Positions 2,440 through 22,231 of a stretch of DNA of 22,893 nt are shown piece by piece. Both the position numbers and the translations under genes were made by a program. This DNA comes from a virus: IMG/VR virus record IMGVR_UViG_3300000827_000030, positions 1 to 22,893 of that record, one strand, 5' to 3'. The first letter of the stretch is position 1, and each line of letters opens with the position of its first letter. The notes below the pieces were generated by a model. That model made no database searches and was not told the DNA's origin. It was given only the letters and a program-made list of their open reading frames with translations.

Positions 2440-2449
2440 TAACTTTCTC

Positions 2450-7158: not shown

Positions 7159-7170
7159 TGTTAAGCCTTT

Positions 7171-7554
7171 CTAAGCGTACCGGGTCTGGCTCCAGTTGCA
7201 TTCCCACTTAAAATCCGTCGTATTAGCGCTGGCCTCGATCTTGCACCGAAACTCTTGAAATCGAGAGTTGATCGGGGCGGCGAGCTGGACATTCTGCTCT
7301 GTCGTGGTCACGGTAATTACGTCGTCTGAGTACGACACGGGGTTCCATGTGCCTCCCGTCAAACGCCCCTCTACAAGAAGCCGAAGGGTGGCAGTAGACG
7401 TGCTTGTCTTGAGAGATCGTAGGACAGCGCGGGCATAGCCGCCCATGATGTCGGCTCCCTCAGTAAGCGTCACCACGCTATCGCCCGTATACGTCGCTGC
7501 CCCGTCTTGCAGAGTCTCAGCGTCCGCATGGAAAACTAATGTTGCATCAACCAT
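7171..7554 (-). CDS. Capsid cement/decoration-like protein (Bbp16-like)
   Basis: Starting at the ATG at 7554, which has GGAGG ten bases upstream, the protein is 127 aa and opens MVDATLVFHADAETLQDG. This resembles the start of the Bbp16-type cement proteins of BPP-1-like phages, as far as I can recall them. The rest is all-beta with many Thr, Val and Ser, and ends KWECNWSQTRYA. Cement proteins sit on capsid surfaces and hold the expanded shell together. GTG 7596 and ATG 7584 are alternative starts with weaker ribosome sites. Position right after the coat gene supports a head role; the family name is tentative. Confidence 0.65.
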   Translation of the reverse strand: MVDATLVFHADAETLQDGAATYTGDSVVTLTEGADIMGGYARAVLRSLKTSTSTATLRLLVEGRLTGGTWNPVSYSDDVITVTTTEQNVQLAAPINSRFQEFRCKIEASANTTDFKWECNWSQTRYA

Positions 7555-7606
7555 CTTCTGTAAATCCTCCAGGGCAAAAGCCATCCCTTGCCCCACTATC
7601 GCTAAG

Positions 7607-8626: not shown

Positions 8627-8642
8627 ACTACTCTGCTCCTTC

Positions 8643-8657
8643 CGCGCCGAAAGCGCG
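8643..8657 (-). other. Small hairpin before the capsid gene ribosome site
   Basis: On the minus strand CGCGC (8657-8653) pairs with GCGCG (8647-8643) around the loop TTTCG. AAGGAG for the capsid gene follows at once. No T-run is present, so it is not a terminator; it may stabilise the capsid mRNA 5' end or mark RNA processing. Confidence 0.3.
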
Positions 8658-8669
8658 TTGCAAGTTCCT

Positions 8670-9389
8670 CTACAGCCCTAGGAGACTCCCCCAGTCGCTG
8701 TCCTCGTCGAGCACCTTCCCACCACTCAGGCGGGAAGAGCTTCCACCGGCAGGGACGAACGCGCCCCCATCCTCGGTTTTTGCGGCCACGTACTTGGCTA
8801 CTGCCTCGTCCGTGAGCTTCTTAGCGGTCGCGCTCTGGCGGGCCGCGATTGTGCGCAGCGCGTTGGGCTCGATCCCCTGACCTGAGAGCAGCTTGAGCGT
8901 CTCCACGTCAGCACCAGGAAACTCACTGGTCACTTGAGTGAAGAACGCATCGAGCTGTGCAGCCCGCGCCACTTGCTGGGCCTGCGTCTGGGCTTGCTCG
9001 CGCTCCATGCGGGCCGTGGTGGCCTCGACACGCGCTTCGAGCAGCTCGTTGGCGGCTTCCGTGCTCAGCTCGCCCGCCTCGATCCGTGCGCCCAGTTGCT
9101 GGCGATACGGCTCAATGGCCTGAGCGACTTGCTGAGAAAGCGCCGCCTCACGCGCATCTGCCAGGATCTGGGCACGCTCTTCCGGGCTGGCCTGAGAGAG
9201 CATCTGCAGGAGCTCGTCTTGACCCATGGGGGATTCTTCTGCTACGAGAGGCTCCGCCACAGGCAATTCCTCGGTCACAGGTAGCGCCTCGCCCACGGGT
9301 TCCGGTGCAGGCTCGGGGGCAGGCTCGGGCGTAGCGCTGGCAGTGCCAAGCAGCTCGTCTACAGCGTCCATCGGGTTGTCTTCGTCCAT
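8670..9389 (-). CDS. Capsid scaffolding protein
   Basis: The 239-aa protein is acidic. Residues 1-55 are Pro/Glu/Val-rich with EPAPEPAPEP repeats. Residues about 55-160 are long helices with many Gln, Glu and Ala (coiled coil), and a helix-rich C-terminal half ends in DSDWGSLLGL. This composition and its place between portal and major capsid genes are typical of scaffolds, which guide procapsid assembly and leave before packaging. The ATG at 9389 is directly preceded by AGGAGATAGGAG. No protease gene is visible, so scaffold exit without cleavage is likely; this is inference. Confidence 0.8.
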   Translation of the reverse strand: MDEDNPMDAVDELLGTASATPEPAPEPAPEPVGEALPVTEELPVAEPLVAEESPMGQDELLQMLSQASPEERAQILADAREAALSQQVAQAIEPYRQQLGARIEAGELSTEAANELLEARVEATTARMEREQAQTQAQQVARAAQLDAFFTQVTSEFPGADVETLKLLSGQGIEPNALRTIAARQSATAKKLTDEAVAKYVAAKTEDGGAFVPAGGSSSRLSGGKVLDEDSDWGSLLGL

Positions 9390-9400
9390 TCTCCTATCTC

Positions 9401-11203
9401 CTACATCCTCTCTTCCAGTTGCGCGGCGATCATCTGGCGCTTCTGGTCTAGCTCTCGCTTCTTGCGGAGCGCTTCGACTGCCTTACTGGCAGCAGGGCTG
9501 GCCATGAGGCCAAAGATCATCTCCTGGGTATCAGGATCAGCGGGGTCGCCCAGAAGTCCCGCAGCCGCCCAGTCTTGAATCGCGGAGTCCTGAGCCTCGG
9601 GAGTGCTCGGGGTCAGGCTTCCCTTCACGACTCGAACCACGGCGCTCCCACCCGCTGTGAGAGCCCCCAGACGAGAGACACTGATCCGTCCTTCTTCCGG
9701 GTTCTTGGTATCGTCGAGCCCCCAGGCGCGGGGCTCACGCACATACTTGCCCAAGATCACGCCACGGCGACGCGCACGCTCCTCGATAAAGCGCTCCAGG
9801 CGGGCGGAAAACGGGGCGTTCTGGGTGTTGTCGGCATCGAGCGCGATCCGCAGAGCGTAGCCAGAGGGTTTCTCCCCACCCATGTTCATGAGCTGGTTTA
9901 CGTGGACACCTGCGATATCCGACATCTGGCGCTCCAGCACGGCCAGCGCTTCGGGCGTGTCCGAATGAACGGTGGGGGAGGCTGCAAGCTGACCCATGCT
10001 TTTCGTCCAGATCGTGACAAAGTTCCCACTCTCCTCGACCGGCGCTTGGAGCCTCTCCTCGATGTCCGCCCCGCTGCCGTCGTTAGGGTCGCGGAAGAAC
10101 ACGTATTTCCTGTTATTGCGCTCGGCTAGCCAGCGGCTCTGGAGTAGGTTATAGGAGAACTGGGGCTCGACCAGATCGCACACAATCCCCCGGTGGTAGC
10201 ACGTCCCCACTTGCTCCTGGTACCCCAGGTGCAAGAGCGGGATCATGCCACAGGGTAGCTCGCCTTTGTAGAAGACATCGTTGCCACAGACCACAATCGT
10301 GCGCCCTTTGCGAAAGCGAGCGGTGGCTTTCTCGTACATAAAGAGCACCGTGGGGTTCTTGGTATCCTTGGCGGCCTGGCCGTTAGCTGCCCAGGGTGAA
10401 GTGAAGACCTCTTTGAGTGAGCGCCATAAGTTGGTCGCACCCAGCATGCCTGTCTCAGGAACGCGCCCATAGCGGCGCTCGACCTCGGCGAGGGGCATCT
10501 CAACGGCATGAATGACCCACTGGCAATCTTCCCACCGTGCGGCTCTGGGGTCGGCGTACACATCCCAGCCCGGTACGATCACCTCGACCAGATCACCCAC
10601 GGGGCGCTCTTCGTAGCCGACAATCTCGCCTGTTTTGTCCCACTTGACCGGGACACTGGCTAATGCGGTCGGGTCCCAATACTGCAAGAGGAACGAATCG
10701 CCGACTGTCCAGGACAAGCGCGAGAGCCTCTGGAGCTGGGCGCGTGAGTCGAGCTTGGCGTTGTAGTGCTCCTCGGCGACGCGCAGCTCCTGGGCAGCTC
10801 TCTGGTCGAGGTCGCGCTTGGTCAGCGGCTGGATGAGTGCGCCAGGCTCCATCATGGTGAAGCGCGCAACAGCCATCGAGCCAAAGCCACGGATAAGGTT
10901 GGTAGGTCGCCAGAAGTCTAGGTCGTCTGGGTTGCGTCCATCCTCCAGGGTGCGAGTCGCCGCGTTATACTTCAGGTGTGAGTAGCCACGCTCCGCCGCA
11001 ATGCACATTGCCCACTCGGGCTCTAAGTCTTGGCGGGCTTGCATGGCCAGCTCAAAGCGCTGGGTCACTAGCTCGATAAGTGCCTGATCGTCTTCTCCCG
11101 CGCTCTTGCTCACCTGCTGCACAGACGAAGCATCGGGCTCGCTCTCTGGATCGCTGGGATTCAGGAGCGGGGCAGGCTTGGAGCGAGAGAACGGCCAGTG
11201 CAT
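9401..11203 (-). CDS. Portal protein (podovirus type)
   Basis: At 600 aa this has the length and order expected for a portal, the twelve-fold ring at the capsid vertex through which the terminase moves DNA. After a disordered 40-residue N-terminus come the helix-rich base (LIELVTQRFELAMQARQDLE, WAMCIAAERGYSHLKYN, WRPTNLIRGF), a beta-rich wing with PGWDVYADP, the stem region with QFSYNLLQSRWLAERNNRKY, and a helical C-terminal part with SGYALRIALDADNTQNAP followed by RLERFIEERARRRG. The end (ASKAVEALRKKRELDQ onward) suits a short barrel. It is between the coiled-coil gene and the scaffold. No ribosome site is evident before the ATG, so translation may depend on coupling to the upstream gene (5 bases away). 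Confidence 0.85.
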   Translation of the reverse strand: MHWPFSRSKPAPLLNPSDPESEPDASSVQQVSKSAGEDDQALIELVTQRFELAMQARQDLEPEWAMCIAAERGYSHLKYNAATRTLEDGRNPDDLDFWRPTNLIRGFGSMAVARFTMMEPGALIQPLTKRDLDQRAAQELRVAEEHYNAKLDSRAQLQRLSRLSWTVGDSFLLQYWDPTALASVPVKWDKTGEIVGYEERPVGDLVEVIVPGWDVYADPRAARWEDCQWVIHAVEMPLAEVERRYGRVPETGMLGATNLWRSLKEVFTSPWAANGQAAKDTKNPTVLFMYEKATARFRKGRTIVVCGNDVFYKGELPCGMIPLLHLGYQEQVGTCYHRGIVCDLVEPQFSYNLLQSRWLAERNNRKYVFFRDPNDGSGADIEERLQAPVEESGNFVTIWTKSMGQLAASPTVHSDTPEALAVLERQMSDIAGVHVNQLMNMGGEKPSGYALRIALDADNTQNAPFSARLERFIEERARRRGVILGKYVREPRAWGLDDTKNPEEGRISVSRLGALTAGGSAVVRVVKGSLTPSTPEAQDSAIQDWAAAGLLGDPADPDTQEMIFGLMASPAASKAVEALRKKRELDQKRQMIAAQLEERM

Positions 11204-11208
11204 GGGGA

Positions 11209-11664
11209 TTACTCAGCCGCCGCCAGAAGCTCGACGATCAGAGGACGAAGTGCGGCCTGGTCGTTGGCGGAGAGGGAGCCGTTGGAGAAGATCGCCTCGT
11301 TCAAAAGGCGAGCTGCTGTCTTGAGCGTTGAGGGAGCGTGGTGCAGAGTATCGGCAAGTTTCTTGCGCAGATCTTCCGCTTCAGTCGCGAGAGAAATCTT
11401 TTCCGACCGCAGATCTTCGATGTCTTCAACAACACCACGAATAGGACCACGAATCTCACCAACTGCGGCAGCGTGCATCGAAGCGATTGTTTCACACGCG
11501 CCCTCGTAGGACTCCTTAAACTGACCAAGCCCAAGATCTAGCTCACTAATCTGAGATAGGAGCTTATCGTTCTCGTCGGTCAGGCGAACATTGGCCGCAT
11601 TCGCCGCCGCTAGAAGCCCTTCAGGAGTCGTCGCTTCCGCCGCTTTATCTTTTTCAGTTGCCAT
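11209..11664 (-). CDS. Coiled-coil protein preceding the portal
   Basis: The 151-aa protein is almost entirely helical, with long heptad-like stretches (about 25-60 and 75-110), an acidic N-terminus (MATEKDKAAEATT) and an Ala-rich end. No motif or family is recognised. It lies between the small membrane protein and the portal, with 5 bases on each side. A minor head protein or packaging accessory is plausible from position alone. Confidence 0.65.
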   Translation of the reverse strand: MATEKDKAAEATTPEGLLAAANAANVRLTDENDKLLSQISELDLGLGQFKESYEGACETIASMHAAAVGEIRGPIRGVVEDIEDLRSEKISLATEAEDLRKKLADTLHHAPSTLKTAARLLNEAIFSNGSLSANDQAALRPLIVELLAAAE

Positions 11665-11669
11665 AGTTT

Positions 11670-11903
11670 TTAGTCCAAGTACCTCGGCGCTATCGCCTGG
11701 GTCTTTGCTGCCTCTCGCCGTGCCAGTTGCCTTGCCTGCGTGTTTCGGAGCGCTAGGGTATCAAGGCTCTCGCGCAGGAGCTTCCAGAAGCCGGGCTGAA
11801 CCTGACCACACCGCAGCAAGCGCAGCTCACTGGCCAGCCAAAGCAAGCCAAGAGCCACGATCCACAACGGTGCGGCCATGATCCAGAGAGAAGAGAGCCC
11901 CAT
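11670..11903 (-). CDS. Small single-span membrane protein
   Basis: The 77-aa frame has one hydrophobic segment near the N-terminus (about residues 7-25, IMAAPLWIVALGLLWLASEL) and then a basic, helical, cytoplasm-like tail. An inner ATG at 11879 would still keep the membrane segment. The ribosome site is poor for both starts (GGAG is 13 bases from the first). It is the first gene after the terminator and ends 5 bases before the coiled-coil gene. Holin-like, spanin-like or virion roles are all possible from size, but no family is recognised. Confidence 0.55.
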   Translation of the reverse strand: MGLSSLWIMAAPLWIVALGLLWLASELRLLRCGQVQPGFWKLLRESLDTLALRNTQARQLARREAAKTQAIAPRYLD

Positions 11904-11957
11904 ATCTAAATATATGCTCCAAGTGCTGAGCGTCCGTGCTTCGAGTGGATGGGTATG
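11901..11957 (-). promoter_or_regulatory. Candidate start region of the structural operon
   Basis: This is the only non-coding stretch between the terminator and the structural genes, so a late promoter is expected here. Its 3' end on the minus strand is AT-rich, with CATAT and ATATG arms of an inverted repeat around ATTTAG (11916-11901) and TATATTTA as a loose -10-like element. TTGGAG lies only just before it, too close for a standard -35. The last ATG of the repeat is the start codon of the next gene. A non-standard promoter read with a phage factor is possible; nothing here proves it. Confidence 0.35.
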
Positions 11958-11983
11958 AAAAAAGCCCCGTCCGTAGCGGGGTT
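11958..11983 (-). terminator. Rho-independent terminator after the early/middle operon
   Basis: On the minus strand, CCCCG (11981-11977) and CGGGG (11969-11965) pair around the 7-base loop CTACGGA, with an extra closing G-U. Six T follow the stem (11963-11958). It lies about 12 bases past the stop of the zinc-knuckle gene and before the structural genes, so it separates two transcription units. Confidence 0.8.
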
Positions 11984-11994
11984 ATCCTAAAATT

Positions 11995-12201
11995 TCAATC
12001 GAAACTTGGGCCACCTGTCTTGTATTTAGCGACCGGCACATTGGCGAAGATCTTCTGAAGGGAAGTCTGGGGGTTTTCGCAGTCGCACAGAGGGTACGTC
12101 CGGTGCGACAAGACAATATCCTGAGGCGGGGTTATCCAATGTCCGCAGTTCGCGCATTTCTCCCCCATGACGCGCTGCGCATGCTTCTCTTTCTCGCTCA
12201 C
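11995..12201 (-). CDS. Small zinc-knuckle protein
   Basis: The GTG at 12201-12199 overlaps the phosphatase TGA (GTGA) and has GAGGGA six bases upstream, so 68 aa is preferred to the 76-aa reading from 12225. The N-terminus is charged. Cys16, Cys19, Cys39 and Cys41 (CANC and CDC) make a probable single zinc site. The remaining residues have no recognised fold. It is the last gene before the terminator, so it ends the early/middle operon. Function unknown; small zinc proteins in this position may bind nucleic acid. Confidence 0.7.
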   Translation of the reverse strand: MSEKEKHAQRVMGEKCANCGHWITPPQDIVLSHRTYPLCDCENPQTSLQKIFANVPVAKYKTGGPSFD

Positions 12202-12593
12202 AGCAATCCCTCTTTCTCCAGCCACTTCTCAACGGCATCCCAGTTCACCATGTCCCGCTCTCCTGGCTCGCCTGGGAGCAGAGGACAGCCAAGGGCCGCA
12301 TCGTCGATATAGAGGTTGGCGTATGCCTTCGGGCTCTGGCTCCAGTATTGGGATGGGTTTGAATTGACTCCATAGAGAGGAATGCTACGGACCGCAAACC
12401 ATGCAGCAGCATCGGTGAGAACCTTGCGGTCTTCAGAATCGCTACGCATCGTCCAAAGAATGAGCTTGTGCCCATTGGCGACAAGACGCTTCAGAACCTG
12501 GACGGCTCCAGGAACGTCGCGCCCAACCTTCGGAAACTCATGGGTAACGCAAGTACCGTCGAAGTCAACAGCGATAATGATTTTGTTATTCAT
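12198..12593 (-). CDS. HAD-superfamily phosphatase
   Basis: The ATG at 12593 has AAGGA eight bases upstream; a longer frame from 12680 would overlap the terminase gene and adds no domain. The 131-aa protein has the HAD motifs: Asp10/Asp12 in VDFDGT (nucleophile and acid-base), Thr48 in ILWTMR, Lys89 in SPKAY and Asp97/Asp98 in YIDDAALG. There is no cap domain of any size, as in small phosphatases acting on large or polymer-bound substrates, though nucleotides are also possible. Stand-alone HAD proteins of this size occur in many phages with unknown substrate. It follows the terminase by 28 bases and shares GTGA with the next gene. Confidence 0.85.
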   Translation of the reverse strand: MNNKIIIAVDFDGTCVTHEFPKVGRDVPGAVQVLKRLVANGHKLILWTMRSDSEDRKVLTDAAAWFAVRSIPLYGVNSNPSQYWSQSPKAYANLYIDDAALGCPLLPGEPGERDMVNWDAVEKWLEKEGLL

Positions 12594-12621
12594 ACTCTCT
12601 TTCCTTGCTCCCTCTGGAGCG

Positions 12622-14238
12622 TCAATTGATCCTTGCGCCTTTGGTCTTGCCCTTGAGCCAGCTCGGACGGTTGCGGTCATAGGCCAGCTTTTCGTCGAGC
12701 TGCTCAGGGCTTTTTGGCGGCGGTTGGATCGAGCGATGTAGCCCCATCCTCAGAGCATCGGCAGGGTGGTCTTCCTGCTTGGGAGCCTGCTCGATCTCCT
12801 CACGATCTATGGCATCCTCGTCGAGGCTATTTAACACTCGGATCAAGTGCTTGCACGTCGCCAGAATCCGAAAGCGGGGGAGCGCGTATTCCTCGCCATC
12901 ACTCCGAATCTCCGTGCGGGTTGCATGTAAGAAACGCTTCACGGTGCGCCAGCCAGCCTTGCGGTCTTTGTCGCCCTTGACGGCTGGCAAGCCTCTCTCC
13001 CAGTAGACCTCAGCAGCATATTTGCCTACACCCGCTCTCCTGGGTGTGCTTGCGTCCTCGGGCGGGAAGGTGCTTGCCCAGTCCATGGGGAGGCTCTCAA
13101 AGCCGCCACGGGATTTCTCGTCAGGCCCTTGCCAGCGTGACAGCTCCCAGCGACCCTCACGATCTCGCACGGGCGAGGCAAGCCCCCACTTCTCCAGACA
13201 CTCCAGAATGAGCTGGGCTTGCTCGTCGTCGCCCTTGCCCGCATCGTAGATCTCGTCCACCGCGTAAATATCGCCCAGGTGATCCTGCACCAGGAGCGCA
13301 AAGTAGAACGTCGGGCTCGTGGCGCTGGTGCCGTAGTCCACCGTGCCCCACCAGTTGCACCAGAGCCCGATGTGTAAGGGTAGAGACGCGATGACGTGCC
13401 ATGGCTCTGCGTGGTAGGTAAAGTGGCCACGCTCCTCATCCCAGACGGGAAAGCGGTGCTCCTCCTCAAACTCGTCAAAGAACCTACCCTGGCGATCCAG
13501 GAATCCCGCCTCGATCTCTTGGTGGAACTCTGCGGTCGAGAGGTCTTTGCGCAGGCTCTCGATCTCACTGGGGGCGATATGAGGGTTAGATCTCGTGGGC
13601 ATCTGCCAGCTCTTCCAGTCGGGATCATAGGTCTCGTCCTCAGGCTGTCCCTTGCGCCAGAGCCCATGGTAATCATCGCGACCTCGGGGAGTGGACGGGA
13701 ACCATGCGCGACCTCGGTAGTCGGCCAGGGCGGGACGGATCGCCATGCGCCACGCGACCATGAGGTGCCGAGACTTAGCGGCCTCGTTGATGATCACGTC
13801 TTTGTATTTGCGCCCGCGACAAGCTTCTGGGTCGCCATCCAGGCTCCAGAACTCGATGATCCCGCCATTGACAAGTTCCAGGCGCTTGTTCTGCTCACTG
13901 ACGCTCTTGGTCGCGGGCTTACAGTACGCTTTCATGGCTCGCCAGACATCGAGCAGGCTCTTGTACGTGGGCTGAAACCACCCGACAGGAAGAGCGTGGA
14001 GGACAAGGCTCTCGATGCCGATGTTGATACACATGACATCTTTACCAAAACGTCGCCCGCAGCAGATCACATTGAAGCGCTTGGACTCCCGCTTAATCTG
14101 CTCTTGGGCGCTATGCAGACTCGGTATCCGAATCGTCGGGGGAGATACAGACGTACTCAATTTTGATTTCTTGTGCGACACTTCCCGCGCTTTCTGAATC
14201 TCCCGCCGCATCGCCCTTGCTCTCGTCCTGGCCGCCAT
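12622..14238 (-). CDS. Terminase large subunit
   Basis: The 538-aa motor and nuclease has an ATPase domain with Walker A GRRFGKD (61-67), Walker B VIINEA (148-153) and coupling motif PSTPRG (181-186). The nuclease domain has Asp301 (TVDYGTS), Asp328/Glu329 (AVDEI) and the end motif EDHPADALRMGL with Asp490/Asp494. It cuts concatemers and pumps DNA through the portal. Two residues differ from the textbook: Asp67 replaces Ser/Thr after the Walker A lysine, and Asn151 replaces Asp in Walker B. The ATG at 14238 has GGAG seven bases upstream but overlaps the small subunit by 128 bases; internal starts at 14211 (ATG) or 14181 (GTG) would reduce this without touching the motifs. Confidence 0.93.
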   Translation of the reverse strand: MAARTRARAMRREIQKAREVSHKKSKLSTSVSPPTIRIPSLHSAQEQIKRESKRFNVICCGRRFGKDVMCINIGIESLVLHALPVGWFQPTYKSLLDVWRAMKAYCKPATKSVSEQNKRLELVNGGIIEFWSLDGDPEACRGRKYKDVIINEAAKSRHLMVAWRMAIRPALADYRGRAWFPSTPRGRDDYHGLWRKGQPEDETYDPDWKSWQMPTRSNPHIAPSEIESLRKDLSTAEFHQEIEAGFLDRQGRFFDEFEEEHRFPVWDEERGHFTYHAEPWHVIASLPLHIGLWCNWWGTVDYGTSATSPTFYFALLVQDHLGDIYAVDEIYDAGKGDDEQAQLILECLEKWGLASPVRDREGRWELSRWQGPDEKSRGGFESLPMDWASTFPPEDASTPRRAGVGKYAAEVYWERGLPAVKGDKDRKAGWRTVKRFLHATRTEIRSDGEEYALPRFRILATCKHLIRVLNSLDEDAIDREEIEQAPKQEDHPADALRMGLHRSIQPPPKSPEQLDEKLAYDRNRPSWLKGKTKGARIN

Positions 14239-14683
14239 CTGGTTTCTCCAACTCTTTCTGGAGAAGCTTCTCCTCCAACTCCGCCAAGCGCAGCTCCAGC
14301 TGCGTCAGGCGAACACGCGATTTCGATTCTACGATCCTCTGGATAGCCTCCGGGCTCTGCCACTCCTCCGGGAATCTCTGAGCCAGGTACCGCCACGCTA
14401 GAGCGGGATCTCGTGGTATCCGGTTGAGCAGAACTGTCTCGACAGCACCTTGGGCTCTTGCCTCCGCCCGATCCACGCGCTGGGCAAAAGTGAGTTTCTG
14501 GCCATCATCGTGCTCCTCCGTGGAATTTGTAGAATCGCCAAGCCAGTTGTAGAAGGTTTTTTTATCAATCCCTGCCGCAGCACAAGCAGCCGTGCGGGTG
14601 TATCCCATCTCCAGCGCCTTGAGGCAGGTGGTCTGCCTTTCCGGGGTGAAGTGGTGGTACCGCCGGGGGACGATCTCAGACAT
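14111..14683 (-). CDS. Terminase small subunit
   Basis: The chosen ATG at 14683 has a strong ribosome site (GAGGAGGAAGCTA before it) and overlaps the sigma-like stop by 8 bases; an upstream ATG at 14725 would add 14 unlikely residues. The 190-aa protein opens with a homeodomain-like HTH (ERQTTCLKALEMGYTRTAAC, then AAAGIDKKTFYNWLG), which in this family recognises the packaging site. A helical core follows (FAQRVDRAEARAQGAVETVL, then AWRYLAQRFPEEW), a common end pattern in terminase small subunits. After that come a coiled coil (about 122-147) for oligomerisation and an acidic tail. It would bind concatemer DNA and load the large subunit, which lies immediately downstream and overlaps it. Confidence 0.85.
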   Translation of the reverse strand: MSEIVPRRYHHFTPERQTTCLKALEMGYTRTAACAAAGIDKKTFYNWLGDSTNSTEEHDDGQKLTFAQRVDRAEARAQGAVETVLLNRIPRDPALAWRYLAQRFPEEWQSPEAIQRIVESKSRVRLTQLELRLAELEEKLLQKELEKPDGGQDESKGDAAGDSESAGSVAQEIKIEYVCISPDDSDTESA

Positions 14684-15053
14684 TAGCTTCCTCCTCGCAA
14701 AGTGCTTGAGAAGGATCGGTATCATACTGCCCGGACCGCTGCGCGACTCGTGCTAACATCAATATCTGGACTTGTCTTTGCGAATAACGACCTTGCTTTC
14801 GCAACTCCATGAGAATGCCCCAGCGTATGGCCTGTTGTGCGTATTTGTAAAACCCTCTTGGGGAGCGTGATGCATCCCATTTCAGAGCGGCATTACACAA
14901 CGCCAAGTGCCCCTCGGAAAGCAGTTCATCGTAGAGATTCGGACACCCCTTGGCATACTGCCCCGCCAAAACTTTGGGCAAATGTTGCCACTGGTCAATC
15001 AGCTTCTCGGCGCACGGGCAACCCACCAGCCCGCAGTGGGGGCACCGGGTCAC
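14676..15053 (-). CDS. Sigma-70 region-2-like protein with N-terminal cysteine cluster
   Basis: Residues about 38-90 align well with sigma-70 region 2, the part that binds the RNA polymerase clamp: LYDELLSEGHLALCNAALKW corresponds to the FLDLIQEGNIGLMKAVDKF part of RpoD, and FYKYAQQAIRWGILMELRKQ corresponds to regions 2.3-2.4. The paired tryptophans used for promoter melting in RpoD are replaced by Gln-Ala. No region 3 or 4 follows; the rest is a 35-residue helical and acidic tail. The N-terminus has Cys4, Cys7, Cys12 and Cys14 (CPHC and CPC), a possible zinc site. The GTG start shares bases with the micro-ORF stop. It stands directly before the terminase genes, a good place for a middle/late regulator. 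It could instead be an anti-termination or packaging-related protein. Confidence 0.65.
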   Translation of the reverse strand: MTRCPHCGLVGCPCAEKLIDQWQHLPKVLAGQYAKGCPNLYDELLSEGHLALCNAALKWDASRSPRGFYKYAQQAIRWGILMELRKQGRYSQRQVQILMLARVAQRSGQYDTDPSQALCEEEANV

Positions 15054-15118
15054 TCTTCCCCCCGGTTACCATCGAGCGCCACCACACCGCACTGCAAGCA
15101 ATAAATGAGATGACTCAC
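15050..15118 (-). CDS. 22-aa micro-ORF with a CxxC knuckle
   Basis: A GTG at 15118-15116 overlaps the replication gene's TGA (GTGA), and its own TGA at 15052-15050 overlaps the GTG start of the sigma-like gene, also GTGA. The peptide is MSHLIYCLQCGVVALDGNRG plus EE. YCLQCG is half of a zinc ribbon. Near its end lies a run of six G (15063-15058), where a -1 slip would join it in frame to the sigma-like protein. It may be a coupling peptide, or the N-terminal part of a longer frameshifted product. Confidence 0.4.
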   Translation of the reverse strand: MSHLIYCLQCGVVALDGNRGEE

Positions 15119-16245
15119 TGAGACCCCACTGACAGTGCCAACGTCTTAGCCCGAGAAATAACCAGGTGCGACCGGGTCCCTTTTTTGCGTGCTTGCTCTC
15201 GGTAGAAGGGAGTTTCGCTCTGCACCATCTCTGCCAGTGCCGCCTCCAGAAAATCTTGTTGTCGCACCTCACCCAGTAGCTCCCAAGCGCTGGGCTCGGT
15301 AGACACGGCAGGGCACGGATGCGGTGTAATCCTGGCCTTGGCGGGGGTGTGCCGAGGCGCACGGCTGATCTCGCTGGGATGGCTGGCAGGTGCTACGGGA
15401 GCGCTGTAGCCCTCTGGCGAGCGTAGAGCGGCGCGGAGCCACCCTCCAGCATTCTGGACACGTCCACGGGCTTTTGCGGCATGGAAGCAGCTGAGGATGT
15501 GCTCGATGGTGGCGCGGCTCAGGTCCTTGGTCGCCGATCTGACTTGGGGATCGTGGGCTATGCTTTGGGCTACGGGCAGTGGGATTCCGGCAGATTCTGC
15601 AAGAAGAGAAGCAGCAGCAAGAGACTCGGTAGACTGGGACGTTTTGGGGTTTGGATAAAGCCCCTGCGCTGACTGCTGTCCTTCCTGCTTTGCAGGAGTC
15701 TGCAAGGTATCCCTACGGGATACTTTATACTGACCCTCCGCAACAGTCTCCGCAGAACCCTCCGCAACAAGGGGGCAAAAAGAGGGGGCACCTGTGTGGT
15801 TTTCAAGGCTTTCAGGGGTGGTTTTTGCCGCGTTTTCATGCCTCGTTTTGGGCACTTTTGGAGCCGAAAAACGGGCAGTTGTTGCGGAGGGTCGGAGGTC
15901 GGGTGCAGACTCCCTCCAATGGGTTTTGTGACCGGGAAAAAGCAGGGCTTTAAGACTCTCTGGAGACAGCAAAACGCGGATACGGCGCTCAATGCCTATA
16001 ACCTGCTCAACTGCCAGAGCGCCCAAAGCCACCAGGCGGGCTATGTATCGCTCTACCGTGTCCACAGAGCATTTTAGATACCCTGCCAGATATTTATTCG
16101 TAGCCCAGCAGAAGCGATCTTTGTTGCGCGTCAGGCGGCGCACTTCAAAAAACAAATTCAGAAGCCCTGCCTGATTTCGTATCCGGCAGGGTTCTGGAAC
16201 CTCTTTGGTAAAAGTCAGCTGGTTAGGTGCGGCGAGCGTTGCCAT
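15115..16245 (-). CDS. Winged-helix replication-initiator-like protein
   Basis: The N-terminal 100 residues fit the winged-helix domain of phage and plasmid replication initiators and replisome organisers. A helix NQAGLLNLFFEVRRLT is followed by NKYLAGYLKCSVDTVERYI (HTH with recognition helix) and a wing EQVIGIERRIRVLL. This domain would bind the phage origin. Residues 100-210 are low-complexity and Ser/Thr/Pro-rich. The middle (about 205-275) is helical, and the C-terminal part has a basic stretch and ends with SRAKTLALSVGSQ. No helicase motifs are present, so it would have to recruit the host replication machinery. A GGAG six bases before the ATG at 16245 supports that start. It overlaps the recombinase stop by 23 bases. 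A plain transcription regulator is the alternative. Confidence 0.7.
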   Translation of the reverse strand: MATLAAPNQLTFTKEVPEPCRIRNQAGLLNLFFEVRRLTRNKDRFCWATNKYLAGYLKCSVDTVERYIARLVALGALAVEQVIGIERRIRVLLSPESLKALLFPGHKTHWRESAPDLRPSATTARFSAPKVPKTRHENAAKTTPESLENHTGAPSFCPLVAEGSAETVAEGQYKVSRRDTLQTPAKQEGQQSAQGLYPNPKTSQSTESLAAASLLAESAGIPLPVAQSIAHDPQVRSATKDLSRATIEHILSCFHAAKARGRVQNAGGWLRAALRSPEGYSAPVAPASHPSEISRAPRHTPAKARITPHPCPAVSTEPSAWELLGEVRQQDFLEAALAEMVQSETPFYREQARKKGTRSHLVISRAKTLALSVGSQ

Positions 16246-17923
16246 GGTTGTCTCCAGCAGAGACTACAAGGCGTAAAACCTCCCGCTCGCCTGGTTTTAG
16301 GCCAGGTTTTAAAGCAGGAAGGGTTATAGCGGCCAGGGCGAGGTCGCCCTGTTTTGTAGCATTCTGCGAACCCGTAGATGGGGACACCTCAAATTGAGTG
16401 CCCGATGAAACTCCGAAATCACTGTAGATTTCAGCCTCCAGTGAGAGAGTCTTGGGCGATATAACCGTCACCCGATGTACAAAGCCTCGCAAGATCGTGC
16501 GACGCTCCGTTTCTGTAGCAGCTTCCCAAAGCTCACCAAATCGCCCTAGGAGCACTTCTAGCTGGTGCTGAGTGGGCAGCGCCGCGCTTGCACGGGACAT
16601 CTCATGATCTAGCCGATCTGCCTCAATGCGCAGTAGCTCGGCCTGGGTTGCCCGCGTGTCCAGCTCACGCAACAATATTTGCCGAGCAGCCCCACCGAGG
16701 TTTCCTGCGAGATCTCCCGTCAGTCGCCGCACCGCCTCCTCTTCCGTCTTGACGCGGCGCAGTGCGGCGCGGTGGGCATCGCGTAGCTCTTTAGGATCTC
16801 CCATGATCTGAGCGGCTTGGGCGAGGGTCTGCCGGATGCGCCACGGGTGCTTGCCCATGCGGATCAGCTCCCCCACCAGCAGCTCGTGGAGCGTGTTGGC
16901 GTTCACCCGCGCCTTGCACAGCCCGAGCCGGACGTGGTAGCAGATGTAATACGGGTAACGTCCCCCACGGCCTTTGGCGGCTCCGGGCGGCATGGACTGA
17001 CCACAGGCGCAACGCACCCGCCCCACAAGCAGATTGTCAGAATCCCGACGCGCGGCATTGCAATGCTCTGGGTTGCGAGCGTTTTGCCGCTTCTCGCTGA
17101 GCTTAACCTGCACGGCGTGGAATATCTCCTCGCTGATCAGAGCCTCGTGGTGGCTCTCGTTTACCGCCTCGCCCCAGTTCCACTGCCCGAGGTAACAGCG
17201 GTTCTGCAGCAGGCTCTTGGTGCGCTCCAGCCTCCAGGGCTCCTCCGTCTCCTCGGCGAGCAGGTCGCGCACGGCGGCGATAGATCCCGTGCTTAAGTAG
17301 AGCATGAACGCCTCAATGGCAAGCTGCTGGGTCTCGGGGTTTATCGTGATACGCTTGGGTATGCGCTTGCCCGGTGCGGCCAGGTCGTAGGCGGGAGTCA
17401 GTGCGTAGCCCACGGGCAGCGATCCGCCCGTGTGGAGTCCCGCCTTGAGCATCTCCAGCATCTTGGTGCGCGTCCAAGCGGCCACCATGATCGGGTAGGT
17501 GCCATCTATCATCTGTGTGGCACTGCGGGCGATGTAGCCCCCCAGGTCATTGGTGAAGCTCTCTTTGATGTGCTCGACACTCACCCCGTGCTTTAAGAGC
17601 TCGTGCTTGGCAAGTGTGAACTGCTCCCCGCGCCCCAGCCGGGACATGAAGGTGATGACAACGATGTCGAATTTCTTCTGCTGTGCGTCTGCCAGGAGGG
17701 CTCGCCACTTGGGACGGCGCAGGTTCGTGCCCGTGCGATCTGGTTCCTGGTAGACCGCCGAGACGGTTCCCCCAAGCCCTTGGATATGCTCCGTGCAGGC
17801 GGCGATCTGTGCATCTGTCGAGGCGAACGCCCCCTCCTCTTTTCCAGAGAAGCGGGCATAGATAACGTAGCGAAGGGCCGAAGTGGGCCGGGCGCTGGAG
17901 GGTTGGTTAGAGCGTACTTTCAT
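16223..17923 (-). CDS. Large serine recombinase (integrase family)
   Basis: The 566-aa protein has the three-part layout of large serine recombinases. The resolvase-like catalytic domain (about 18-150) holds YARFS with nucleophile Ser26, a DRTGTNLRRP loop, and SRLGRG with Arg95 and Arg98. The recombinase DNA-binding domain follows (about 160-285), with LPVGYAL. A zinc ribbon uses Cys305, Cys307, Cys328 and Cys336. A helical, coiled-coil-prone region (about 380-460) precedes a beta-rich end. Such enzymes integrate and excise phage DNA by double-strand exchange through a Ser-DNA link. The usual DRLGR acid is Ser here (MSRLGRG). It starts on ATGA with the 52-aa ORF and overlaps the next gene by 23 bases. 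Its place inside the replication operon, without a gap for attP, is unusual. Confidence 0.92.
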   Translation of the reverse strand: MKVRSNQPSSARPTSALRYVIYARFSGKEEGAFASTDAQIAACTEHIQGLGGTVSAVYQEPDRTGTNLRRPKWRALLADAQQKKFDIVVITFMSRLGRGEQFTLAKHELLKHGVSVEHIKESFTNDLGGYIARSATQMIDGTYPIMVAAWTRTKMLEMLKAGLHTGGSLPVGYALTPAYDLAAPGKRIPKRITINPETQQLAIEAFMLYLSTGSIAAVRDLLAEETEEPWRLERTKSLLQNRCYLGQWNWGEAVNESHHEALISEEIFHAVQVKLSEKRQNARNPEHCNAARRDSDNLLVGRVRCACGQSMPPGAAKGRGGRYPYYICYHVRLGLCKARVNANTLHELLVGELIRMGKHPWRIRQTLAQAAQIMGDPKELRDAHRAALRRVKTEEEAVRRLTGDLAGNLGGAARQILLRELDTRATQAELLRIEADRLDHEMSRASAALPTQHQLEVLLGRFGELWEAATETERRTILRGFVHRVTVISPKTLSLEAEIYSDFGVSSGTQFEVSPSTGSQNATKQGDLALAAITLPALKPGLKPGEREVLRLVVSAGDNHGNARRT

Positions 17924-18078
17924 CCGCTTTGGTTCCCCCTGGTCCTTGGCTTCTCCTCTGCTCCGTCCAGGCGAGCGGCAATCTGAAGCAATACTCGTAG
18001 CGCCTCGACCGTCTCTTGGACGGCGACGCAGCGAGAGACGGGAGCCGCCTTGATTTCGATGGTCGGCTTTGCAGACAT
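17920..18078 (-). CDS. Small 52-aa protein coupled to the recombinase gene
   Basis: The ATG at 18078-18076 shares its first base with the resolvase stop (TGATG). The TGA at 17922-17920 overlaps the recombinase start (ATGA). The frame therefore fills the 154-base gap exactly, which strongly favours a translated gene. The product starts MSAKPTIEIKAAPVSR and contains a probable helix (VQETVEALRVLLQIAARLDG), then a charged tail ending GNQSG. No family is recognised. It may be a small accessory of the recombinase or a pure coupling ORF. Confidence 0.65.
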   Translation of the reverse strand: MSAKPTIEIKAAPVSRCVAVQETVEALRVLLQIAARLDGAEEKPRTRGNQSG

Positions 18079-18728
18079 CAGACCGTTACTGCCTTGCGCG
18101 CGGAAGATGCTCGCAGCTTCAGGCTCCCCTGCCCCGCTTTTGCCTCTTTAGCCTTGATCTCCGCCCATGCCTTGCGCCCGGCGACAACCCCTACGGCAAT
18201 GGCATCCGCTTTTGCATCCTGGGTAGGATCGAGCTGGAGGTTACAAAGCGCGTTTACTCCCTCGATCACAGCCTGCTTGAGTCGCTTTTTCTTGGCCGTC
18301 TTCTCGGCAGATGTAGTGCCCGCTTTCTCTCGGTACACTCCACTTGCGCCGACGGCTGCGCAGGCAGAGACACGGGCAACTCCCTCCAGTGGGACTCCGG
18401 CCAGGCGCGGAAGGCACAGAAACGCGCCCGTCGCCATATTAATGGCCTCGGTGGCGTAGTGGCCCCGCTCGGTCTGCTGCTCGTAGGCCACCAGGTCAAT
18501 GCCAGGTGCATTGTCTCTAATCCAGACCGTCATAGCAGAGCGGATCGCACCAATGCGATCTAGCCGGTGTCGAAGGGTGGTATGGCTTTTTAGATGCCCT
18601 GTGAGTTCAAATCCATCGAAGGCCGCAGATTTGGCGAGGATAGCGCCCCCACGATCTACAGTGACGAGTGCAACGCCGACAATATCGGTGCTTGGATCAA
18701 TGGCGAGGACGTGTAGTATGTCAGGCAT
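18078..18728 (-). CDS. RuvC-like Holliday junction resolvase
   Basis: The 216-aa protein has the RNase H-like core of RuvC nucleases: LAIDPSTDIVGVAL at the N-terminus with Asp11, VAYEQQ with Glu83, and DAKADAIAVG near residues 171-180 giving Asp171 and Asp175. These acidic residues bind the metal ions that cut four-way junctions symmetrically. The C-terminal end is rich in Lys and Ala, suited to DNA binding. Phages use such enzymes to clear recombination branches before packaging. It overlaps the exonuclease stop by 8 bases and shares TGATG with the 52-aa ORF downstream. The spacing of the last two acidic residues is four, against three in Escherichia coli RuvC, so the exact catalytic assignment is tentative. 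Confidence 0.85.
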   Translation of the reverse strand: MPDILHVLAIDPSTDIVGVALVTVDRGGAILAKSAAFDGFELTGHLKSHTTLRHRLDRIGAIRSAMTVWIRDNAPGIDLVAYEQQTERGHYATEAINMATGAFLCLPRLAGVPLEGVARVSACAAVGASGVYREKAGTTSAEKTAKKKRLKQAVIEGVNALCNLQLDPTQDAKADAIAVGVVAGRKAWAEIKAKEAKAGQGSLKLRASSARKAVTV

Positions 18729-19653
18729 TAACGTTATCTTTCTTCTGCTGGACTTTGGCCAGCTTTTCGAGGTCTTCGAGAGTGCTCAGGATGTTGCGAA
18801 ACGCACCGATCACAAAGCGATTGGTATCCTCCACGGGGCCAGATCGTGAGGAGAACCCTTCGACTTTTTCCAGCTCGCCACTCTTGGCCTTACGGTGCAG
18901 CTCGCATAGCTGTTTAGAGACGGAGAAGAATGGTTTTGGAGCTGGCTTTGTGTCGGAAGTGGGTTTCTGAGGGCTTTGCACTACGGCTGGGGATGATTGG
19001 TGCTTGTAAACCCTGCCCACAGGCTCCGCAGAAGCCTCATCCAGCAAGTTCCCACTGGATGCTAAGAGATGTTCTTGCCAGGCAAAGAGTGCGGCGCATA
19101 TCTTCGTGTCCTGAAGCGCGTCGTGAGCCTCATCCTGAGTCAGCCCGATAGATTTAGCGAGGGTGGACAGCTTCAAGTTCTCTGTCTTGGCAACAGTTTT
19201 TCGACGTACCAGCTCTCGTTGGCGCACGATCGTGCAAAGGGCATCGCGGGCGGGGACGGGTATGTTGTGACGACGATAAAGAGCACTGAGGAAGTCGTGG
19301 TCGAACTGACCATTATGAGCCACAAACGGTGCGCACTCAAAGCCTTCGGGCAGCCCTCCGAAGAACTCTTGAAGCTCTTTGACGAGATCCGTCTCGGTAA
19401 TCTGGTTTGGACGGCGGAGGAGGCTTGTTCGGGTATGTCCCTGAATCTCCAGTGCCCTGTCCTCGATCATGAGTCCTGGCGCGGGTCGCACTGCCCAGAC
19501 GCGCACAAACCGCCCCACTTCGGAGCGGTCGAGCGTAGGCACCTTGACAGTCCCTGAGCCATGCGCCTCGCACGCCACCACCGCAAGCTGGGTGATGGGA
19601 TGGCGATCAGGAGAGAGTCCCCCGGTCTCGAAGTCAAAGGCGATGATGCGCAT
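18721..19653 (-). CDS. DnaQ-like DEDDh 3'-5' exonuclease
   Basis: The first 195 residues show the complete DEDDh exonuclease set: Asp7 and Glu9 in FDFETGG (Exo I), Asp118 in VAHNGQFD (Exo II), and His177 and Asp182 in HDALQD (Exo III). Such enzymes remove nucleotides from 3' ends with two metal ions, as in proofreading subunits and RNase T-like nucleases. The last 110 residues are a Pro/Ser/Lys-rich linker and a helical, Lys-rich end with no known domain, perhaps for partner or DNA contact. The gene begins on the TAATG shared with the 512-aa gene and overlaps the resolvase by 8 bases (ATGCCTGA). Context suggests processing of recombination or replication intermediates with the RecT-like and RuvC-like proteins. 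Confidence 0.88.
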   Translation of the reverse strand: MRIIAFDFETGGLSPDRHPITQLAVVACEAHGSGTVKVPTLDRSEVGRFVRVWAVRPAPGLMIEDRALEIQGHTRTSLLRRPNQITETDLVKELQEFFGGLPEGFECAPFVAHNGQFDHDFLSALYRRHNIPVPARDALCTIVRQRELVRRKTVAKTENLKLSTLAKSIGLTQDEAHDALQDTKICAALFAWQEHLLASSGNLLDEASAEPVGRVYKHQSSPAVVQSPQKPTSDTKPAPKPFFSVSKQLCELHRKAKSGELEKVEGFSSRSGPVEDTNRFVIGAFRNILSTLEDLEKLAKVQQKKDNVNA

Positions 19654-21191
19654 TAGAGTATCTGCCCCGCAGCCGCGTCAGCTCCTGCCAGTGCTCCCAC
19701 GGGCTCCGGCAATCCTAGAGTGTCGCCCTCCCCGATTCCAAGGCGCTTGGCACTGGCTTCCCACTCGTCATCCGAGAGGATCACAGCAAGCGCTTCGTTT
19801 GCCTGTTGGGTGGCTTCCCTGAGTTGCTCCTTGATAGAGAGCGATCCTGGCCACATTGCTCTGCCTTGATCCCGCTTGGCTGTGGGCTTGCTATTGCACG
19901 GCCAGCCGCCTGAGGAGACATGCGCCGCGAACAAAGGCAAGTCATCCCCCGCAGCAAGGAATAAATCTGCGTCCCTCAGCTCCTGGACTCCAAGGTTCGC
20001 ACCTGTCGATCTCCCATAAAGTACCAGCCGGGCGAATCTAGCCGTCTCAACGTAGGAAGGGCAAATAAAATCCTTGGTAATGTAGCCCTCCAGGTTGGCG
20101 GCCAACACCGCATTGGCAAAGTTACGTCGATCGGCGGGCCACTGCTCCACAGGGACCGTTTGATTATCCTCTAAGTCGTGCACGATATCTTCAGAAGCCG
20201 GTATGCCATCCTCATCCGCATCGTCCACTTTGATGATCAGCGCACCGTGCCCTTCGGCAGTCTCACCGCCCTCTTCCTTGGGCTGGCTTCCGTATTCAGG
20301 CTCTAGCAACCTATAGCCTGTCTGAGCAATGACCCACCTGCCGCCTGTGGGCTCCACGTCCTGGCCCTGGGCATCGTCCCAGCTCACGCCCTCGGTCTCC
20401 ACCTGCATCCCCGGCACGACAAAGCGCGTGTCGTAGGGCAGTTCGGGCTGGCCATGCACCTGCTCCCAGGCCTTGACCCGCACGGCATGGCGAAATCGCC
20501 CGCCCTCATCGCACTGCGGATCGGTATCAAGAACGAGGAACGCCTCTTCACTGGGCTTCTCGCCAATAACCAGGATGTCACGGCCCTTGCCGACCTTGAA
20601 GTTTTTCTTGGGGTGATCCACTCCCCCAATGGCCTGGGCGCGTGTCCACTCGTTTGGCGTGAGGTAAAGCGAGAGCAAAAGGTCATTTCCCGTGGGGCGA
20701 TTCTTGAGGCGCGACATGACGGCGCGTAGGGTCAGTCCGTCCTCACCCCACACAGAGATCTCCTCACTGAAGAGGCGCGTGTCGGGCTTGGCGGTCATGA
20801 GCACCTGGGTCTCCGGGTGCACCTGGCAGTGCAGCAGCAGGTGGTACATGCCCTGGAGCCGCTTAGCTTCCGCTTCTTCGGGCTTGTACCCAGAGTCCGG
20901 GTTGCTGATGGCGTTCCAAAGGTCCTCATTGACTTCCACCAGAAAGCACTTCTCGGTGTTGTCGCACTCTATCGTCTCTCCCTCGCGCAAGAGCCCCTGA
21001 AGAGCCACCGCAGTGAGGTGGCTCTTCAGGCTCACGCGCCCAAAGAGAAATTCCTTATCGCCCTTCCAGCCCGACTCCATCACAAAGACGAGAGAGACTC
21101 CCTGAAGATGCCCTAGGTGCATCGCGGGGTCTTTAATTAGAGAGAGTGCCAGGGGAGCTAAAATCCCATACGCTAGTTTTACAGATGCCAT
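19653..21191 (-). CDS. Unrecognised 512-aa protein of the recombination cluster
   Basis: I do not recognise a family. The protein is soluble-looking and acidic, with no signal peptide, membrane helix or clear nucleotide-binding motif. The N-terminal third looks alpha/beta mixed. The middle (about 190-330) contains HAVRVKAWEQVHGQPELPYDTRFVVPG, broken here only for description by its key Trp, Pro and Gly residues, followed by very acidic stretches. A region at about 305-345 (DDADEDGIPASEDIVHDLED) is strongly acidic. The tail is Ala/Gly-rich. Its stop and the next ATG share a base (TAATG, 19655-19651), so it is co-translated with the exonuclease. Location between a RecT-like and an exonuclease gene suggests a replication or recombination accessory role. 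Its closeness to the CRISPR-repeat-like element makes an anti-defence role thinkable, but nothing in the sequence shows it. Confidence 0.8.
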   Translation of the reverse strand: MASVKLAYGILAPLALSLIKDPAMHLGHLQGVSLVFVMESGWKGDKEFLFGRVSLKSHLTAVALQGLLREGETIECDNTEKCFLVEVNEDLWNAISNPDSGYKPEEAEAKRLQGMYHLLLHCQVHPETQVLMTAKPDTRLFSEEISVWGEDGLTLRAVMSRLKNRPTGNDLLLSLYLTPNEWTRAQAIGGVDHPKKNFKVGKGRDILVIGEKPSEEAFLVLDTDPQCDEGGRFRHAVRVKAWEQVHGQPELPYDTRFVVPGMQVETEGVSWDDAQGQDVEPTGGRWVIAQTGYRLLEPEYGSQPKEEGGETAEGHGALIIKVDDADEDGIPASEDIVHDLEDNQTVPVEQWPADRRNFANAVLAANLEGYITKDFICPSYVETARFARLVLYGRSTGANLGVQELRDADLFLAAGDDLPLFAAHVSSGGWPCNSKPTAKRDQGRAMWPGSLSIKEQLREATQQANEALAVILSDDEWEASAKRLGIGEGDTLGLPEPVGALAGADAAAGQIL

Positions 21192-21194
21192 TGT

Positions 21195-21317
21195 TTATTC
21201 GACCTTTCGAGTTTCAATCCTCACCCGGTCTTCGGGCCGGGTGCAACTTTGCTTGATGCGCTCATCCGAGGAGACGCAAGAGCTGAAGATTTTGTGGGCA
21301 GTCGCAGAGAGGCTCAT
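21195..21317 (-). CDS. Possible 40-aa ORF spanning the CRISPR-repeat-like gap
   Basis: An ATG overlapping the RecT-like stop codon (ATGA, 21317-21314) opens a 40-codon frame that ends TAA at 21195, three bases before the ATG of the 512-aa gene. It starts MSLSATAHKIFSS and ends RVRIETRKVE, basic at the C-terminus, with two cysteines and no recognised domain. The tight tiling is like other small genes in this operon, which favours translation. There is only a weak ribosome site, and the CRISPR-repeat-like hairpin occupies its second half. Either the DNA is coding and the resemblance is accidental, or the ORF only couples ribosomes across the gap, or both functions coexist. Confidence 0.35.
   Translation of the reverse strand: MSLSATAHKIFSSCVSSDERIKQSCTRPEDRVRIETRKVE
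21211..21247 (-). repeat. Solitary CRISPR-repeat-like element (candidate RNA anti-CRISPR)
   Basis: Read on the minus strand, these 37 bases start GTTG (21247-21244), then stem arm CACCCGG (21243-21237), an 8-base loop (21236-21229), the perfect partner arm CCGGGTG (21228-21222), then AGG and ATTGAAAC (21218-21211). Length, GC stem position, GTTG start and ATTGAAAC end match the known layout of Cas6-processed class 1 CRISPR repeats, where ATTGAAAC forms the 8-base crRNA 5' tag. No second copy lies within a spacer distance on either side, so this is not an array. All genes run the same way, so the operon transcript carries it in crRNA sense. It sits in the gap between the RecT-like and 512-aa genes. 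A 40-codon ORF also runs through it, which is the main alternative reading. Confidence 0.65.
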
Positions 21318-22231
21318 GACCCTGCTCTTTCTTCTTCGTCCGCGAACGGATCACTCAGATCGCTCTCCACCTCTAGGGGTGCCTCTGGGTAGACCGCCAG
21401 GAGAGCCGCCAAGTGCTTCTCCCAAGCCGCGTGATCGTTGGGTGCGGGCAGTTCCGTAACCTCCTCACCACGCACCTCCGAGAGGAGAACCAGGGTGCCC
21501 TTCTTGCTGATCTTCCCATCTGCCGTGATGGCTGGTGGTGTCAGCCTGAGGTCTTTGGCACGGGCAATGAACTTATCCATGGGTGCAGGTGGCCGAGGGT
21601 TTGTGGGAGCGGCGGGAAGTGCGGGGGGCATGGTGTGCTGCGTTCCTGCGCTTGGCAACACGTCCTCGGGGGTGATAGCCCTGGGCTGAGATCGTGGCGA
21701 TCTAGCCGAGCCATACACTGGCTCTGGGGATGGCATGTGCAACGCTTCATCCTCCGTGTAGATGCCATTGGTCACGCCAGGTGCAACAGACCGTACTGCC
21801 TCCGAGATGCAGCGGTTTCTCAGCATGGCATCGGGGTACTTGCGCCATGTGTCCGTCTTGCCCCAGAGATCGGCTCTCTGCGCTTTTGCCTTGTCCCAGG
21901 TCAGGGTGATGGTACTCCCATCTGCGGCAATGAACTTCCCTGTGACGCACTCAGCGCTGTAGTCAACCCACTCCACCGAGCCACCAGCCTTCTGGAACTC
22001 TGCCAGCATCGCCTCAGATTTCATCGTGGGACGACCATTGATGATGTGGTAACGGCGCACGGCCTCAATGGGGTTAAGCCCATCTGCCAGGCAGAGCAGC
22101 ATTAACGTGATAGCCTCCTCTTTGCGCTTAATGCCAAAGAAGTTGCTGGAGACGATGTAGCCTGCCATCTGCTCTAGTTGGGGCAGATCAACGGATAGGG
22201 CTGATGGTGATTGTAAAATGAGATTACTCAT
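21314..22231 (-). CDS. RecT-like single-strand annealing protein
   Basis: This 305-aa protein belongs by sequence pattern to the phage RecT/Bet type of annealing proteins, which coat resected single strands and anneal homologous DNA. Residues 1-165 carry the family pattern: an LNPIEAVRRYHIINGRPTMK segment (about 52-71), the following MLAEFQKAGG, then WRKYPDAMLRNR and a SEAVRSVAPGVTNGIYTEDE end. The Pro-rich linker (about 165-220) and acidic C-terminus ending DPFADEEERAGS resemble the flexible tails that contact host SSB in other annealing proteins; that role is inferred. The start has AGGAA seven bases upstream of the ATG. It sits between the HTH gene (22 bases) and the CRISPR-repeat-like gap. 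The nuclease downstream is a 3'-5' DnaQ type, not the usual lambda-exo partner. Confidence 0.85.
   Translation of the reverse strand: MSNLILQSPSALSVDLPQLEQMAGYIVSSNFFGIKRKEEAITLMLLCLADGLNPIEAVRRYHIINGRPTMKSEAMLAEFQKAGGSVEWVDYSAECVTGKFIAADGSTITLTWDKAKAQRADLWGKTDTWRKYPDAMLRNRCISEAVRSVAPGVTNGIYTEDEALHMPSPEPVYGSARSPRSQPRAITPEDVLPSAGTQHTMPPALPAAPTNPRPPAPMDKFIARAKDLRLTPPAITADGKISKKGTLVLLSEVRGEEVTELPAPNDHAAWEKHLAALLAVYPEAPLEVESDLSDPFADEEERAGS

Follow-up and report, generated by a model that had tools for sequence, protein, structure and literature searches.

The Locus

The stretch of viral DNA analysed here, called the window, comprises positions 1 to 22,893 of an IMG/VR record (IMGVR_UViG_3300000827_000030), and it encodes a terminase, a portal protein, a major head protein and an integrase. 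On the minus strand, a recombination operon runs from a RecT-like gene through the gene of a 512-aa protein (p512) to the genes of a DnaQ-like exonuclease and a RuvC-like resolvase (Table 1). Between the RecT-like and p512 genes lies an element, SRU-A, which reads on the minus strand (21247 to 21211) GTTG, CACCCGG, CCCGAAGA, CCGGGTG, AGG and the octamer ATTGAAAC, 37 bases in all. Its 7-bp stem is perfect, its loop has 8 bases, and its sense is that of the flanking genes. SRU-A is solitary, since elsewhere in the window the best match reaches 21/37, and in the 150-base flanks 18/37. This confirms the initial annotation, which had described at this place a single-copy, 37-base minus-strand element with a stem and a loop, in the sense of the operon.

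When the 37-mer is folded alone, the 7-bp hairpin has an energy of -13.5 kcal/mol, with z -2.45 relative to shuffles; in a 146-nt context of the operon, folding is no better than that of shuffles (z 0.12). A single promoter-like site was found near SRU-A, within and after it, at the level of chance. No cas families were found among the 10 window proteins scanned against PHROGs, nor among the 10 scanned against Pfam.

SRU-A lies between two clear genes, yet inside a 40-codon ORF, which starts in an ATGA overlap, as do its neighbours in the operon, and stops 3 bases ahead of the next ATG. In codon bias this ORF is intermediate: 5.6% of real-gene windows have a score no higher, and 1.8% of off-frame windows have one no lower. 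Ahead of the repeat the bias resembles that of a gene, at a level which about 2% of off-frame windows reach, and within the repeat it is poor (-0.16 per codon). Since the bias is intermediate, and more gene-like ahead of the element, the ORF may be a genuine small gene with SRU-A inside it. Read in sense, the repeat is open in a single frame of three, and this is the one that the ORF uses. The initial annotation had mentioned a peptide among the things that might speak against an RNA role; it had left the 40-codon ORF across SRU-A undescribed. The p512 ATG comes 19 bases past SRU-A, with a separate AAAGG nearer to it.

Searches by way of the 512-aa protein, the RecT-like protein, the terminase and the exonuclease yielded no relatives spanning SRU-A. 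The relatives of RecT (33-38%) and the closer relatives of the terminase (about 39-46%) were without such a unit in the stretches examined.

Table 1. Features of the window and of the overlapping record, with their positions (in the window unless stated otherwise)
Feature	Position	Strand	Basis or remark
RecT-like single-strand annealing protein, upstream gene	21314..22231	-	phrog_561 (2e-20), PF03837
40-codon ORF, MSLSATAHKIFSSCVSSDERIKQSCTRPEDRVRIETRKVE, holding SRU-A in frame	21195..21317	-	ATGA overlap with the stop of the RecT-like gene
SRU-A, solitary type I-C CRISPR-repeat-like unit, GTTGCACCCGGCCCGAAGACCGGGTGAGGATTGAAAC	21211..21247	-	matches array repeats at every non-loop position
SRU-A hairpin, 5' arm CACCCGG	21237..21243	-	fold, and covariation over 12 solitary units
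SRU-A hairpin, 3' arm CCGGGTG	21222..21228	-	fold, and covariation over 12 solitary units
Would-be crRNA 5' handle, AGGATTGAAAC	21211..21221	-	in 12/12 solitary viral units; fixed by the search pattern
p512, downstream gene, function not assigned	19653..21191	-	no PHROG or Pfam match
DnaQ-like exonuclease, same operon	18721..19653	-	phrog_192, PF00929
RuvC-like resolvase, same operon	18078..18728	-	phrog_159 (1.7e-6)
Stretch common to the window and IMGVR_UViG_3300000829_000041	1..16799 = 13692-30490 of that record	.	99.99%
SRU-B, GTTGCACCGGGGTCTCGGCTCCGGTGAGGATTGAAAC	3328-3364 of IMGVR_UViG_3300000829_000041	+	28/37 like SRU-A

The Repeat Family and Its Subtype

A loop-tolerant pattern run on species-representative genomes matched 25 stretches, mostly arrays, in Chloroflexi, Armatimonadota (including Chthonomonadaceae and Capsulimonas), Geobacillus, Moorella, Nitrospirae, Cyanobacteria and others. 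In several of these stretches, all 29 of the 29 non-loop bases are those of SRU-A. The best full-length match to an array repeat is 33/37 (89%), with four differences, all in the loop, and the closest array is one of 40 repeats in a Chloroflexi genome; none of the 25 stretches bearing the family pattern contains an array with SRU-A's own loop or SRU-A exactly. Thus the idea that the element mimics a CRISPR repeat, put forward in the initial annotation, is borne out by a known family that agrees at all 29 non-loop bases, by the recurrence of solitary units in phages and by the presence of a second unit in this phage. The finding feared there, that no repeat family would resemble the element beyond its octamer, was looked for and did not appear.

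The cas genes adjoining such arrays in a Clostridia MAG, a Chloroflexi MAG, Moorella and two Armatimonadota-group genomes are those of subtype I-C (Cas1c, Cas3c, Cas4c, Cas5c, Cas7c and Cas8c), to which SRU-A's repeat family belongs. Type I-C systems are without Cas6, and their crRNAs are processed by Cas5 (PMC7913775; also PMC10651486), so the initial proposal that Cas6 recognises or cuts the element has to be abandoned. Because the family is of subtype I-C, Cas5c replaces Cas6 as the predicted cutter of SRU-A, with a predicted cut site immediately 3' of the 3' arm. The cut would leave AGGATTGAAAC, which we take to be the 11-nt 5' handle of type I-C crRNAs. The type I-C repeats of Armatimonadota, Chloroflexi, Geobacillus and Moorella share with SRU-A the position of the stem, the ends and the length, and several of them agree with it at every one of the 29 non-loop bases; in contrast to these array repeats, SRU-A is present in a single copy, without spacer or cas genes, and has a loop sequence of its own.

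Solitary Units in Other Viruses

All of IMG/VR was scanned with the pattern GTTGC-N20-GAGGATTGAAAC, in which the 5' GTTGC and the 3' GAGGATTGAAAC are fixed and the stems are free except for the outermost pair; the ends are therefore invariant in the viral units because the search fixed them. At exactly 37 nt, 16 contigs match, and 15 of them form a hairpin at the expected position, the exception being L037. Their stems vary in sequence yet remain complementary. The reversed pattern has no match in the whole of IMG/VR. Ten other gap lengths gave about 20 matches in total, with a proper hairpin in two (L127, with a 5-bp stem, and the second unit of L041); lengths other than 37 nt were set aside, the matches being mostly chance ones in which the stem is absent. 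With pieces of arrays left out (L042 and L028/L030) and L040 and L046 treated as duplicates, there are at least 12 distinct solitary viral units, SRU-A included. Among 12 solitary units, 94.4% of the pair cells hold standard pairs and eight of the nine pairs show double-sided changes; none of 500 shuffles was as good, and sliding the partners destroys the pairing. A full-length match to the unit was not found among the named phages of INPHARED.

Most of the viral units are at gene boundaries and in the sense orientation, whereas L035 and SRU-B are antisense to their neighbours. The distance from the unit to the next ATG is 19 bases in the window, 11 for the second unit of L041 and 4 for L036, and in L043 and L045 there is none, the ATG following directly on GAGGATTGAAAC. 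Since the unit abuts the ATG in these last two, the GAGG of the repeat can serve there as a ribosome-binding site: it is so placed for a phrog_503 protein in L043 (3250-3286, +) and for a phrog_1 integrase in L045 (3218-3254, -).

Other placements were also observed. The duplicates L040 (2719-2755, -) and L046 (1854-1890, -) have a solitary unit in frame within an 84-aa ORF, with a phrog_2201 match directly after it. The frame that L040 shares with SRU-A was dropped as evidence; as this repeat has one open sense frame, the coincidence is not independent. A 13-kb phage contig (L041, IMGVR_UViG_3300026278_000025) carries three solitary I-C-like units on the plus strand (1801-1837, 1971-2005 and about 7365-7399), the second just before the gene of the terminase small subunit, and after two of the three, GAAAC-like copies of the end of the handle stand in tandem. 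In L027 (12092-12128, -), the unit begins 4 bases past the stop of an 87-aa ORF, which is the layout of acrIC5-RacrIC1 and makes the product of this ORF a candidate Acr. A 54.8-kb viral contig (IMGVR_UViG_3300022554_000219) has identical I-C-like repeats at its ends, three at one (L028, 21-201) and one at the other (L030, 11000-11036); this is either a mini-array lying over a circular junction or a provirus adjoining an array.

A Second Unit in the Same Phage

Another record, IMGVR_UViG_3300000829_000041 (30,490 bases), has about 16.5-16.8 kb in common with the window and, judging by this near-identical overlap, is from the same phage. It ends before SRU-A and extends in the other direction to a second unit, SRU-B, whose stem of 9 bp is complementary and different from that of SRU-A. 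SRU-B sits between two late genes, antisense to both, and no clear promoter for it was found by consensus. Since no single record spans both units, it is from the overlap of the records that we infer SRU-A and SRU-B to be on one molecule.

Hints as to the Host

An Armatimonadota host for this phage is only suggested, by hints of several kinds. The repeat family occurs in 28 of 291 Armatimonadota-group genomes, with no match to the reversed control pattern in the genomes of this group listed. Viral units L029, L040, L027 and L041 are identical at 35-36 of 37 bases to Armatimonadota-group arrays. A solitary prophage unit adjoining terminase, portal and head genes (L137, 6433-6469, -, in genome G199) is identical at 37/37 to a 21-repeat array (L083) in another Armatimonadota-group genome. 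Relatives of the terminase (E<=1e-20) are present in 17/291 Armatimonadota-group genomes versus 3/251 Chloroflexi-group genomes. A comparison of 591 spacers with the phages gave only chance-level matches, like those of the reversed control, and no host could be assigned by spacer.

Proposed Function and Alternatives

SRU-A mimics, as a solitary unit, the repeat of a type I-C array and probably acts as an RNA anti-CRISPR (Racr), and the most likely reading of the two units together is that both are decoy RNAs that would jam type I-C defence. SRU-A would be transcribed within the mRNA of the recombination operon. In a type I-C host, Cas5c would bind its hairpin and cut at the base of the stem, as in a pre-crRNA, and the fragments released would be the hairpin, or the 11-nt handle joined to phage mRNA. 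Such fragments might sequester Cas5c, Cas8c and Cas7c in dead-end complexes without a useful guide and so lower interference. SRU-B, with its other stem, might raise the dose of the decoy or allow more kinds of host repeat to be mimicked. What the analysis establishes is the sequence, the hairpin, the repeat family with its subtype, the recurrence of solitary units in phages and the pair of units in this one; transcription, cutting, sequestration and the suppression of immunity are what we infer for SRU-A. Translation of the 40-codon ORF, if it occurs, would bring in ribosomes that disturb the hairpin. A more elaborate version, which is conceivable though rather unlikely, is one of dual use: the I-C mimic would lie in frame within a translated small gene of the recombination operon, in relatives the unit would merge with a ribosome-binding site, the mRNA itself would be the decoy, and a Cas cut would both release the decoy and reset the expression of the next gene, with the two stems of one phage covering different host repeats.

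Another explanation is that SRU-A is a Cas-responsive control element of the mRNA, in which a cut by Cas5c parts recT from p512, or GAGG acts as a ribosome-binding site, so that expression of p512 depends on the Cas proteins of the host. The short distances to the ATG in the window, L043, L045, L036 and the second unit of L041 are in its favour, as is a solitary unit of a host genome placed about 12 bases before a Cmr1-Cas10-Cmr3 operon. However, such control cannot apply to L027, L035 and SRU-B, which follow the last gene or run antisense to genes; the separate AAAGG is nearer to the p512 ATG than is SRU-A; and gene boundaries are where a phage tolerates any inserted element. We therefore consider control of this kind improbable. 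It is less probable still that the 37 bases of SRU-A are simply part of a real 40-aa gene, with a likeness to the repeat that is historical (a captured repeat, now coding) and no role as RNA. The start in an ATGA overlap like those of neighbouring genes and the gene-like codon bias ahead of the repeat would fit a gene, as would the unit in frame in L040/L046 with its 84-aa ORF and the phrog_2201 domain after it; but the codon bias within the repeat is poor, the frame shared with L040 is not independent, and conservation of a peptide would not keep the stem perfect in unrelated phages whose stems differ.

The unit might also be the decaying remnant of a host-derived CRISPR array or mini-array, or else an attachment site used in integrating into arrays. 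Multi-copy viral contigs do exist (the two-copy L042, and L028/L030 with repeats at both ends of the 54.8-kb contig), and CRISPR-repeat-like sequences mediating integration into arrays are mentioned in PMC10651486. Either reading is nevertheless very unlikely, given that the flanks of SRU-A hold no partial second repeat, that all of its non-loop bases are intact, that two different units occur in one phage, and that the serine recombinase gene (16223-17923) is more than 3 kb away. As to chance resemblance, the octamer by itself is common; but the architecture of SRU-A (scored as GTTG, a 7-bp stem, an 8-base loop, 3 bases and ATTGAAAC) is expected about 8e-8 times in 22.9 kb, by a Markov/composition estimate, and the 25-base family pattern about 8e-11 times in the window. 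These numbers already refute chance, as do the empty reversed controls in IMG/VR and in the Armatimonadota-group genomes listed, and its probability is negligible.

Relation to Known Systems

SRU-A, read as a repeat mimic, belongs to a kind that is already known. Camara-Wilpert et al. (2023, PMC10651486) described RacrIC1 from a Bifidobacterium pseudocatenulatum prophage, which is on one transcript with acrIC5 and inhibits type I-C in vivo. Like SRU-A, RacrIC1 is a solitary type I-C unit without cas genes, and the transcript that it shares with a protein gene would have its counterpart in that of SRU-A. RacrIC1 differs in being 11 nt after a known acr gene, acrIC5, and in having been tested experimentally, whereas SRU-A is embedded in a recombination operon, within what may be a small coding ORF, is of the 37-nt GTTGC...GAGGATTGAAAC branch, and is accompanied in this phage by another unit that differs from it. 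The same paper describes RacrIF1, from a Thiocystis violascens prophage, which captures Cas6f and Cas7f. RacrIF1 is likewise a repeat mimic and traps Cas proteins in an aberrant complex, as SRU-A would do; it is, however, of type I-F, relies on Cas6f and has its own promoter, while for SRU-A, of type I-C, Cas5c is the predicted cutter. The mini-CRISPR arrays borne by viruses, reviewed in PMC11656645, resemble SRU-A in being host-type repeats carried by a virus but contain two repeats separated by one spacer or more, whereas SRU-A is one repeat; SRU-A as a mini-array was rejected, as there is no second repeat with a spacer.

The 2023 survey reported 2,103 viral units (PMC10651486). Its SRUFinder procedure required at least 90% identity to a known repeat and masked ORFs predicted at 80% confidence or more, coding units being treated as likely false positives (PMC10651486). 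The repeat nearest to SRU-A among those found here is 89% identical, just under this cut-off, although it agrees at 29/29 bases outside the loop, and for this reason SRU-A may have escaped the survey. More generally, the masking of genes and the 90% rule create a blind spot in which units within reading frames or with new loops are missed. Term searches of the main text of PMC10651486 brought up no discussion of several units per virus.

What is new, then, is the pair of stems in one phage, the location of SRU-A within a recombination operon and perhaps a small gene, and the merging of the unit with ribosome-binding sites or coding sequence in relatives. This adds a testable family of type I-C decoys in phages of poorly known bacteria, and it indicates that two repeat mimics which differ in their stems can be present in a single phage. 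If the Cas5c of the host can cut decoys from ordinary phage mRNA, a dedicated promoter would be needless, which would explain the placement at gene boundaries.

Solitary Units in Cellular Genomes

The solitary unit upstream of the Cmr1-Cas10-Cmr3 (type III-B) operon is in an Armatimonadota-group genome (L138, 7596-7632, +, in G198) and is possibly an element of Cas autoregulation. A solitary repeat-like unit with an imperfect stem (L139, 5413-5449, -, in G057) is followed, after about 70 bases, by an ORF that to the eye resembles that of an IMP dehydrogenase.
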